Made by a program: the position numbers and the translations under genes. The notes beneath the pieces were generated by a model. It saw nothing but the letters and a program-made list of their open reading frames with translations. It searched no databases and was not told the origin of the DNA. This document shows, piece by piece, positions 6,719 to 8,618 of a stretch of 64,000 nucleotides of DNA; position 1 is the stretch's first letter, and the number at the start of each line of letters is the position of its first letter. This DNA comes from Hongsoonwoonella zoysiae (lineage in GTDB: Bacteria; Pseudomonadota; Alphaproteobacteria; Rhizobiales; Stappiaceae), in the NCBI RefSeq assembly GCF_013266695.1, contig NZ_JABRXF010000003.1, forward strand, positions 124,001 to 188,000, written 5' to 3'.

Positions 6719-7309
6719 TCATAGCCCGCGCCGTCCCCGTCCGACGGCGCGGGCAACCATTGCCGAGATCTGCGTTTCGGAGCGCATGAAGCTTTCTGCA
6801 TCGCGCGTCGTGATGTTGAAGACGATCGGCGGATTTTTGCCCTCTCCCCCGTTCACCGCAACGCCCAGTCTGCCGTTTGTGCCCCGTTGAAGCGGCAGCA
6901 CCGCTTCCGGTCCCGCCTCCCCGGCAAGGCCGAGGCCGTTGCCGGCTGGAAAGAACGTCGGCGCGGCAATAACGCCGCCCTTGGCGAAAGGCGTCACGCG
7001 CGGTCCCGAAAGGGCGTTCGAAATCCCGCCCGCCGCCAGATTCCCGATGCCGGAAAACGCCCTGGAAAGGCCCGCGCCAAGTCCCTGCTCGACAGGCCTT
7101 AGCGCCCGGTCGAGAAGGCGTGAAGAAAGCCTGAGCGCGATGGAGCGAAACAGGCTGTCGAGCCTCGCGCCATCGGCCAGCGCATCGCGCAATCCGCCTC
7201 TGAGAGAACGGGATATCGCGTCTGCGCTCACCCGCGCGGCATCGAGCCGCCGCGAAAATGCATTTAGTTCTTGCGTCGGAATATCGACGGCCACCGGATC
7301 GTCGGGCAT
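6719..7309 (-). CDS. GTA tail tape measure protein (g11)
   Basis: At 196 residues this is a miniature lambda-type tape measure protein, as in RcGTA, whose tail is very short. The N-terminal half is amphipathic helix (residues 10-75). A glycine-rich region follows, with the diagnostic FAKGGVI and GEAGPEAVLPLQRG motifs around residues 110-145, typical of tape-measure C-termini. It sets tail length and is ejected with DNA. It is downstream of g10.1, but about 350 nt of mostly repetitive DNA separates them, which is unusual for this compact cluster. The start is the only ATG before the conserved N-terminal helix. Confidence 0.9.
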   Translation of the reverse strand: MPDDPVAVDIPTQELNAFSRRLDAARVSADAISRSLRGGLRDALADGARLDSLFRSIALRLSSRLLDRALRPVEQGLGAGLSRAFSGIGNLAAGGISNALSGPRVTPFAKGGVIAAPTFFPAGNGLGLAGEAGPEAVLPLQRGTNGRLGVAVNGGEGKNPPIVFNITTRDAESFMRSETQISAMVARAVGRGRRGL

Positions 7310-7440
7310 TTCCGTCCTCCTTCGTCTCTATCCAGGGTTAAAAGGCGTGACGCCGCATGGATGCATGGATCGAGGCCACCCCTGTCCGATCAAGAAATCC
7401 GCCTGAGCGGCTTCGCGCGTTTCCCGCGCACGCTCCGCCC

Positions 7441-7600
7441 TCACCCCGGGCCTGACCCGGGGCCCAATCACGGTTCAACATGCGAGGGCGATGGGGAAAC
7501 CCGTTGGGCGATGCCACGAGCCTATTGATATTTCGAGGTATTTTGCGAGGTGGATTAGGTCCCGGATCAAGTCCGGGACGACACCGAGGATGGACACTGC
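7441..7600. repeat. Palindromic repeat element inside the GTA cluster (g10.1-g11 gap)
   Basis: Two hairpins lie in this gap. One is CCCCGGG-CCTGA-CCCGGGG at 7444-7462 and the other is GTCCCGGA-TCAAG-TCCGGGAC at 7559-7579. They are variants of the CCCGGG-CTTGA-CCCGGG unit also seen near 10030, 15655 and 15770, so this is a dispersed intergenic repeat rather than a gene-specific terminator. The rest of the 7310-7659 gap holds no credible gene; the readable frames across it are repeat-derived. Confidence 0.75.
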
Positions 7601-7659
7601 CACTCCCCTTCGCCAAGCAGTCGGGAAGCGAAGCCGCATCCTTCGCGATTTTCAACGCC

Positions 7660-7866
7660 TCACCTTCCATCCGGATATCTTTCCATCAGCCCGTTGAGAA
7701 CGCCGCGCGAGATCGGCAACCGCTCGTCTGGCACGCTGAAGAGATTTGCGATTTCGCGCGGGGTCGCGGCCCAGAAGTCGCCTGGCCTCCAGCCAAGCTT
7801 CCCAAGACAAAGCGAAAGCAGCGCCTTCCAGGGAAAGGGCGCCGGACCGTCCCCCGCGCCTACATA
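7660..7866 (-). CDS. GTA tail chaperone extension g10.1 (rcc01693 family), -1 frame of g10
   Basis: In the -1 frame relative to g10 the DNA stays open to a TGA at 7662-7660. It encodes 68 residues with the rcc01693-family signature: PFPWKALLSLCLGKLGW, then PGDFWAATPREI, ending GLMERYPDGR. This frame has no ATG, GTG or TTG between its upstream in-frame stop (7881-7879) and the conserved FPW motif, so it cannot start independently by normal rules. It is most easily explained as a frameshift extension of g10, giving a 180-residue fusion, as in the G/GT tail assembly chaperones of lambda-like phages. The family match is clear; the frameshift is inferred from the missing start and the slippery site. 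Confidence 0.75.
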   Translation of the reverse strand, partial: YVGAGDGPAPFPWKALLSLCLGKLGWRPGDFWAATPREIANLFSVPDERLPISRGVLNGLMERYPDGR

Positions 7867-7872
7867 GGGTTT
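7838..7872 (-). promoter_or_regulatory. Putative -1 programmed frameshift site (slippery heptamer plus hairpin)
   Basis: On the minus strand, A-AAC-CCT occurs in the g10 frame at 7872-7866, a textbook X-XXY-YYZ heptamer. It lies two codons before the g10 TAG. Five bases (ATGTA) separate it from a hairpin: GGCGC (7860-7856) pairs with GCGCC (7842-7838), and inside it GGG can pair with UCC around a GACGG loop. Slippage by -1 would continue reading with TAT GTA GGC into the g10.1 frame. Confidence 0.7.
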
Positions 7873-8201
7873 GACGGGTCAGCCGCTTCCTCGCCGCTCC
7901 CGAATGTTGCGGCAAGAAGGTCGGCGGCGACCGCCGCGAAACCCGCCGCCCCGCCTGGCGCGACCATGTTCGACACCTGCTCGTCGTCGACGGCGTTTCC
8001 CGCCCCGCGAAGGCCCGCGCCGATGATCTTCGTGAGGTCGGATGCCGAAAGCCGCCCGCTCGAAAACCGCTCGGTCAGCGCGCCCAGGTCCTGCGCGCCG
8101 TAGGCCGCCTCCAGTTCCGCCAATGCGCCGAGTGTGAGCACCAGTGTCCAGCGCCGCCCGTCAAGCACCGCCTCGATTTCGCCTCTCAGCCGGTTTGCCA
8201 T
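7860..8201 (-). CDS. GTA tail assembly chaperone, gp10 family (g10)
   Basis: The 113-residue protein belongs to the GTA gp10 family (Phage_TAC_11-like). It begins MANRLRGEIEAVLDGRRWTL, with the typical LGALAELEAAYG and DLTKIIGAGLRGAG segments and an Ala-rich central helix. In tailed phages the equivalent protein coats the tape measure during tube polymerisation and is absent from the finished particle. It starts 3 nt after the g9 stop. A slippery heptamer overlaps its last codons, so a fraction of ribosomes may produce a longer g10-g10.1 fusion. Confidence 0.88.
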   Translation of the reverse strand: MANRLRGEIEAVLDGRRWTLVLTLGALAELEAAYGAQDLGALTERFSSGRLSASDLTKIIGAGLRGAGNAVDDEQVSNMVAPGGAAGFAAVAADLLAATFGSGEEAADPSNPM

Positions 8202-8204
8202 CGC

Positions 8205-8618
8205 TCAGGCCCCCGTGAAGGTCAGCGCGCCGGCGGATTCCAGCGCAAGATCGTATGTCACTTCGCCGTTGTACTCGCCTGCATAGTCAAGGCTCGCGAT
8301 CTGGAACAGGCCCTCGATGGTGCCGAAATCCGGCACGACCACCTGCCAGTTGCGGATCGTGCCGTCGAAGAAATAGCCCCGCACCGCCGCATCCGACGTG
8401 CCGTCCTTGAAGATGCCGGCGCCTGAAACGCTTGCCGAGCGCGTTCCTGCGCCTTCCAGAAGCTCGCGCCAGCGCCCGGCACTTTCGGCGTCCGTTACGT
8501 CGACCGCACCCGCGTTCAGCGAAATCCGCCTTGCGCGAAGTCCCGCCACGGTGACGAAACTTCCCGCCCCGTCCGTATCGCATTTCAAAAGAAGGTCCTT
8601 GCCCTTCTGTGCCGTCAT
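8205..8618 (-). CDS. GTA major tail tube protein (g9)
   Basis: The 137-residue protein matches the TP901-1-type major tail proteins of GTAs. It begins MTAQKGKDLLLKCD, and the LRARRISLNAGAVDVTDAES and GAGTRSASVSGAGIF segments are family signatures; DYAGEYNGEVTYDLALESAG near the C-terminus completes the beta-barrel tube fold. It polymerises into the tail tube. The ATG has a good AAAGGA 7-8 nt upstream. It lies between g8 (37 nt upstream) and g10 (3 nt downstream). Confidence 0.92.
   Translation of the reverse strand: MTAQKGKDLLLKCDTDGAGSFVTVAGLRARRISLNAGAVDVTDAESAGRWRELLEGAGTRSASVSGAGIFKDGTSDAAVRGYFFDGTIRNWQVVVPDFGTIEGLFQIASLDYAGEYNGEVTYDLALESAGALTFTGA

Follow-up and report, generated by a model that had tools for sequence, protein, structure and literature searches.

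The g10 and g10.1 genes of the gene transfer agent (GTA) cluster analysed here most probably form a tail-assembly-chaperone cassette that, like G/GT of phage lambda, is read by −1 programmed ribosomal frameshifting, a reading to which, judging by sequence, we assign a probability of roughly 0.88. Comparison with related junctions further suggests that a G/GT-type −1 frameshift very probably occurs in many RcGTA-like clusters outside the Rhodobacteraceae. The genome holding the window (the whole stretch of DNA that was analysed, 64,000 nucleotides) is 4.36 Mb in size, and the ORF layout of the window places a GTA head-tail cluster on the minus strand. Family searches showed that the gene order g9-g10-g10.1-g11 is of the RcGTA type, with the g10–g10.1 pair set between the tail tube and tape measure genes on one strand (Table 1); cluster genes other than g9 to g11 were assigned from the ORF layout and a reading of the translations. 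By g10, the nearest named relative is Stappia sediminis (L059; 89% identical).

Table 1. Features of the g10/g10.1 region (positions are those of the window).
Feature	Positions	Strand	Remarks
g9, tail tube protein, upstream neighbour	8205..8618	−	match to RcGTA Rcc01691, E 9e-52
g10, tail assembly chaperone 1, 0-frame product	7860..8201	−	113 aa; PF11836, E=2.2e-31
Shine-Dalgarno-like GAGGAAG	7886..7892	−	starts 20 nt 5' of heptamer; possible weak stimulator, putative role
TGA of −1 frame, just upstream	7879..7881	−	bounds the overlap where a slip would have to occur
Slippery heptamer A-AAC-CCT (candidate)	7866..7872	−	X-XXY-YYZ register with g10 frame; recurs in relatives
g10.1 segment, presumably entered by −1 slip	7660..7866	−	PF09550 from FPW on; stop 7660-7662
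Candidate hairpin GGCGC/GCGCC	7838..7860	−	5 nt 3' of heptamer; no stabler than shuffles
g11, short tape measure protein, downstream neighbour	6719..7309	−	NF058675, E 4.6e-42; 144 bits, below the model cut-off of 220

A preliminary description of this stretch had placed g10.1 in the −1 frame of g10 without an ATG, GTG or TTG of its own and had pointed to an exact X-XXY-YYZ heptamer near the g10 stop; coordinates, frames and a codon scan agree with both statements. The −1 frame is open from stop to stop (7660-7878) and encodes a PF09550 domain (E=1.3e-15, residues 15-71), a family labelled TAC by Pfam. The 3' end of g10 reads GAC CCG TCA AAC CCT ATG TAG, with a single ATG codon between A-AAC-CCT and the stop, and the −1-frame codons that follow the upstream TGA are CCC GTC AAA CCC TAT GTA GGC GCG GGG GAC GGT CCG GCG CCC TTT CCC TGG. 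Between that TGA and the FPW motif the window contains no ATG, GTG or TTG, nor any of the near-cognates CTG, ATT, ATC, ATA, ACG, AAG and AGG, which speaks against the non-canonical g10.1 start that had been named as a possible refutation.

According to the proposed mechanism, most ribosomes would read g10 to its TAG, and a smaller share, holding tRNA-Asn at AAC and tRNA-Pro at CCT, would slip one base back, to AAA and CCC, and enter the g10.1 frame; the resulting fusion would carry the PF09550 domain as its C-terminal part. Translation reproduces the product sizes given in the preliminary description: beside the 113-residue g10 product, a slip at AAACCCT joins 112 g10 residues to 68 others in a predicted protein of 180 residues, the junction of which reads ...DPSNPYVGAGDGPAPFPWK. 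The slip would turn the wobble pair of tRNA-Pro(GGG) on CCU into a full match on CCC, and would leave tRNA-Asn(GUU) on AAA mismatched at the wobble position only; the 44 tRNA matches typed in the genome include tRNA-Pro GGG, UGG and CGG, one tRNA-Asn GUU and one tRNA-Phe GAA. By analogy with lambda, the tape measure protein would be covered by the short form, and the long form, made less often, would bring in the tail tube protein; tail assembly would be set in this way. We infer both the slip itself and its rate, and are aware of no bacterial measurement of how often A_AAC_CCU slips. The string 'AAACCC' does not occur in the accessible part of PMC5009743.

Tailed phages characteristically make their tail chaperone pair by programmed frameshifting, and the slip site of lambda G/GT is G-GGA-AAG. 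Lambda and the GTA pair are alike in gene place, in having two overlapping frames, in the −1 direction and in a short and a long product (predicted here), and G-GGA-AAG is common to lambda and seven relatives of our first set of junctions, where it lies in register (six of the seven have no start codon for g10.1). The GTA sites differ in belonging to a domesticated agent, in being mostly Pro-based (AAACCCT, CCCTTTC) and often directly before the stop, and in having an upstream Shine-Dalgarno (SD)-like motif rather than a hairpin. In the available excerpts, GGGAAAG is listed as highly shift-prone in E. coli, the lambda products are given a ratio of 30:1, with the G part on the tape measure and the T part on the tail protein (PMC5009743), and two genes in a cluster of HK97-like tail chaperones had measured frameshifting of 6% and 7% (PMC3711429). 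The likeness to lambda gpG and gpT is thus one of gene place, frames and site. An AlphaFold2 model of g10 (mean pLDDT 92) matched nothing in the PDB with E below 0.001; its top match in a viral fold library (E 2.9e-4) is a protein without a name, and 'tail assembly chaperone protein' makes up seven of the 50 viral-library matches listed (E 0.007 to 0.24). The g10.1 model had no significant match in that library (best E 0.45), and a PHROG scan of the 180-residue fusion gave no profile covering both parts.

We compared the junction across two sets of loci. The first comprised 204 loci, 203 of them paired, from which 13 duplicates were removed to leave 190 unique g10/g10.1 junctions; it was drawn from the family (all 58 matches in 87 genomes), the order (the best 30, plus 60 picked for genus spread, of 245 matching genomes) and the class (30 of 45 matching genomes), and completed by 26 named genomes found via g10 (L203, in which no g10 was found, was left out). 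The second consisted of 80 viral-contig loci, reduced by six duplicates to 74 junctions, 70 of them in −1; two of the 74 share 85% identity or more with a first-set junction and five with another of the 74, and since many of these contigs resemble GTA clusters, the second set represents new sequence, not different biology.

The frame of g10.1 relative to g10 is −1 in 174 of the 190 junctions, +1 in 13 and 0 in three, and none is fused. In the sequence upstream of the FPW motif, limited to the 60 nt leading up to the g10 stop and anything past it, 70 of the 174 junctions contain ATG or GTG, 24 contain TTG only and 80 contain none of the three (38 of these 80 also lack near-cognates within the stretch scanned). 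In-register X-XXY-YYZ heptamers are present in 64 of the 80 start-less junctions, in 11 of the 24 with TTG only and in 12 of the 70 with ATG or GTG; the absence of the heptamer from relatives, which the preliminary description held would refute its reading, was thus not what we found. The other two registers of the 80 start-less junctions hold two heptamers each, and codon shuffles a mean of 18.4; because this mean is high owing to conserved codons that themselves favour heptamers, cleaner subsets were tested. Where the FPW motif lies past the g10 stop, 25 of 34 start-less junctions carry an in-register heptamer, against one and one in the other registers and a shuffle mean of 6.5 (maximum 13), and 23 of 31 do so after thinning at 70% identity, a step that kept 121 of all 174 −1 junctions. 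The exact word AAACCCT appears in 11 of these 34 junctions (shuffle mean 0.12), and heptamers occupy 31 of 563 positions in the tails of the 34 g10 genes versus three of 2754 core positions. Across all 125 −1 junctions with FPW past the stop, exact in-register AAACCCT is found at 25 of 1,579 positions in g10 tails (11/563, 7/318 and 7/698) and at none of 10,125 core codon positions (0/2754, 0/1782 and 0/5589 in three subsets).

In the other 46 of the 80 start-less junctions, the FPW motif falls within g10 and can be read in the −1 frame only. CCC-TTT codons, which form C-CCT-TTC, were found in 26 of 38 −1 junctions with a recognised FPW motif inside g10 versus 14 of 91 with FPW past the stop (Fisher p 8e-9; the sequences are related, so that junction counts are not independent and this and all other P values are optimistic). 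The main informative heptamer types are AAACCCT, CCCTTTN and GGGAAAG. TTTCCCT at FPW was dropped as evidence (27/38 vs 52/91), since the FPW codons yield it in 52 of 91 junctions with the motif outside the overlap; it is still counted among the 64 of 80. The second set behaves in the same way: start-less junctions carry in-register heptamers in 8 of 11 cases with FPW past the stop (1 and 0 in the other registers) and in 11 of 11 with FPW inside g10 (0 and 0).

That a heptamer takes the place of the g10.1 start across junctions, a pattern that the preliminary description proposed to look for, is borne out as a tendency, seen in 64 of 80 start-less junctions against 12 of 70 with ATG or GTG and in none of 32 from the Rhodobacteraceae, which have a start. 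However, the exchange is not exclusive: AAACCCT is present in 7 of 69 first-set ATG/GTG junctions, above the shuffle level, 11 of 27 second-set ATG/GTG junctions carry some heptamer, and a stretch of 160 nt holds no in-register heptamer in 11 of the 80 start-less junctions (six of these 11 retain C-CCT). Some junctions of the ATG/GTG class may use both a start and a slip. Individual loci also depart from the common layout: one g10 tail (L194) contains three in-register GGGAAAG sites, at −79, −67 and −43 from the stop, and in three others (L094, L100 and L142) the g10.1 domain lies more than 250 nt past the g10 stop, with something extra between.

The preliminary description also proposed a hairpin 5 nt past the heptamer. 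The hairpin is present, but it is not more stable than dinucleotide shuffles (z of +0.72, −0.38 and +1.02 in three windows), which leaves its role as a stimulator unsupported, and downstream folding does not differ between 84 shift-class and 50 start-class junctions (p 0.36). Mean folding z is −1.20 for six GGGAAAG junctions and −0.62 for 38 CCCTTT junctions. Upstream of the heptamer, SD-like 4-mers at a distance of 11–18 nt were found in 42 of 68 cases (shuffle mean 16.9, maximum 28, 0/1000 as high); because this range had been picked after seeing the first-set data, it was retested unchanged on the second set, where 19 of 34 cases have such a 4-mer (shuffle mean 5.8, maximum 13, 0/1000 as high). 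By our count, the SD-like motif stands at 17 nt in one sister genome of the genus (L002) and at 15 nt in the other (L003); the GAGGAAG of the window, at 20 nt, is outside the enriched range. Family-wide, the upstream SD-like motif appears to be the better-supported stimulator than the hairpin. A parallel exists in E. coli dnaX, where an internal Shine-Dalgarno sequence 5' of the slip site stimulates a −1 shift (PMC5600365, as far as its text was available); gene and heptamer differ, and dnaX has a downstream hairpin, of which none is evident in the GTA junctions. A word GCCGCA recurs after the stop in many junctions of the AAACCCT-TGA type, for example in the viral-contig loci L294, L309 and L323, and may reflect either a codon constraint or a stimulatory signal.

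Among other explanations, the first accepts the shift as real but attributes it mainly to slippage of one tRNA, the peptidyl-tRNA-Pro at C-CCN, in many cases with the stop codon in the A site. For junctions with FPW past the stop, C-CCN abuts the stop in 23 of 56 without ATG or GTG versus 5 of 69 with, an in-frame C-CCT is present within the last 15 codons in 40 of 56 versus 11 of 69, and several relatives retain C-CCT alone, as in GAC-CCT-TGA. In the window, however, an ATG codon sits between CCT and the stop, the exact AAACCCT of the start-less junctions is far over chance, and GGGAAAG and CCCTTTC sites agree with two-tRNA slippage; we regard the single-tRNA route as improbable.

Far less probable still is translational coupling, in which re-initiation at or beside the g10 stop, in an ATGA, GTGA or TTGA overlap, would yield g10.1 as a protein of its own. 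Coupling fits the Rhodobacteraceae, where all 32 junctions have a start (31 ATG/GTG and one TTG) and none a heptamer, in a set that takes in the 30 best matches out of 184 matching genomes and 3 of 17 from one genus (L209 was dropped for lack of a pair) and that, being made of best matches, tilts to close relatives of R. capsulatus. It also fits both Caulobacteraceae junctions (L197 and L199), which read ATGA and have no heptamer; their family was assigned by an MreB 94-95% identical to a reference chain, presumably that of C. crescentus, and MreB excluded a further genome (f61) from this family. A 4-nt overlap likewise sets g10.1 in the −1 frame, for which reason that frame alone was not counted as evidence, and TTGA is seen in many relatives. 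The window, however, offers g10.1 no usual start codon, and TTG in the relatives is mostly a product of CCT-TGA, AAC-CCT being found also before TAG and TAA, stops that create no TTG. There are 56 in-register AAACCCT sites in the two sets, 26 of them further upstream and 30 directly before the stop, which is TGA in 26 cases, TAG in three and TAA in one; after AAACCCG or AAACCCC it is TAG twice and TGA once. This recurrence of AAACCCT before TAG and TAA as well as TGA suggests that the heptamer, not the TTG, is what the relatives conserve. At NTGA overlaps, an SD-like 4-mer stands upstream of 10 of 30 ATGs and 3 of 21 GTGs, compared with 1 of 20 TTGs formed by CCT-TGA, a weak contrast given that just 4 of 22 Rhodobacteraceae NTGA starts have such a 4-mer.

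Slightly less probable again is a start of g10.1 within its own domain, either at a CTG three codons past FPW, which is in frame, or at the ATG in 'GLMERYPD', even if the record of the one phage relative does start g10.1 at an internal ATG (L205, position 2555): an internal start would lose FPW, whose P and W are present in at least 90% of 34 aligned sequences, the ATG in 'GLMERYPD' would remove nearly the whole PF09550 domain, and the in-register heptamers would be left unexplained. Least probable is decay or sequence error, by which the two frames would be a broken unit of a non-working GTA. A repeat-bearing insert just 3' of g10.1 that is missing from the two sister genomes might point this way, as might a copy broken elsewhere (L053 in genome G005, with TGA and TAA inside the g10.1 frame, probably a decayed g10.1), but both sister genomes hold the −1 relation together with heptamers (A-AAC-CCT in L003, C-CCT-TTT in L002), as the sequencing error raised in the preliminary description would not lead one to expect, 174 of 190 junctions are in −1, the g10.1 domain is whole, and long ORFs run on through the remaining cluster. 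Transcriptional slippage was set aside, since AAACCCT has no long homopolymer.

The −1 frameshift that we favour would set the window apart from the best-known agent. In RcGTA, where the pair is named 'tail chaperone 1 and 2' and the second is g10.5 (available text of PMC11409702), the domains of g10 (Rcc01692) and g10.1 are homologous to those described here and the gene order is as in the window. RcGTA g10.1, unlike that of the window, has its own start at a GTGA overlap and no heptamer, as read from locus L236 (GGA TCG TGA, with a GTG start), which, its tail tube protein being 100% identical to Rcc01691 in the PDB, is from R. capsulatus or a near-identical genome. Phages of R. capsulatus share host class and function but are not GTA clusters: tail assembly −1 frameshifts are reported for most phages of a collection (PMC8601537) and are noted in PMC4882933 too, and the portions of the two papers at hand do not describe a frameshift for RcGTA. 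A +1 frameshift proposed in a hydrolase gene of a Wolbachia element (PMC10299305, in part) is a different thing. Like the author of the preliminary description, who knew of none, we came across no account of frameshifted tail chaperones for any GTA in the literature searched, parts of which were available only as excerpts; the mechanism is already known, and the GTA setting and the type of site appear, within that literature, to be new.

How often start and slip have been exchanged was followed on a tree that took in 143 of 223 junctions. The start/no-start state changes 26 times on it, and the starred branches alone force seven (no start) and nine (start) changes of group label; with only 26 of 140 inner branches starred, the tree is poorly resolved, the number of switches uncertain, and gain not told apart from loss. 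On balance we lean towards the view, drawn from these sequence comparisons, that RcGTA-like GTAs outside the Rhodobacteraceae and Caulobacteraceae broadly retain an ancestral phage recoding switch that is Pro-tRNA-based, SD-stimulated and hairpin-free, and that the laboratory-studied lineages, and others more than once, have swapped it for an independent start.

Two observations concern the annotation and surroundings of g10.1. The one phage record with g10.1 that was found, a freshwater phage contig (MW462191; L205 2440-2740), has an AAACCCT-TGA junction as in the GTAs; in the record, g10.1 begins 44 nt past the end of g10, at an internal ATG, and loses FPW, which is expected if a frameshift was missed. 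In the window, the gap between g10.1 and g11 (7310-7659) is 350 nt long versus 2-3 nt in both sister genomes, with about 340 nt inserted relative to L059; part of the insert is an interspersed repeat, which another 13 pieces of the genome match, some at one place, and the insert may uncouple translation of the tape measure gene.

If RcGTA-like agents do broadly share the proposed frameshift, g10.1 would be prone to being overlooked or shortened in annotation, and the stoichiometry of the GTA tail chaperones would be set by two interchangeable mechanisms, with the start in Rhodobacter and the slip in its relatives providing a natural comparison for what the fusion buys. A-AAC-CCU and C-CCU-UUC are candidate bacterial slip sites, and the frameshift signal could help to separate functional from decaying GTA clusters. 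The apparent retention of frameshifting in chromosomally fixed GTAs, as indicated by the excess of heptamers and of upstream SD-like motifs, suggests that the balance of short and long chaperone is still needed and hence that these clusters still build tails.
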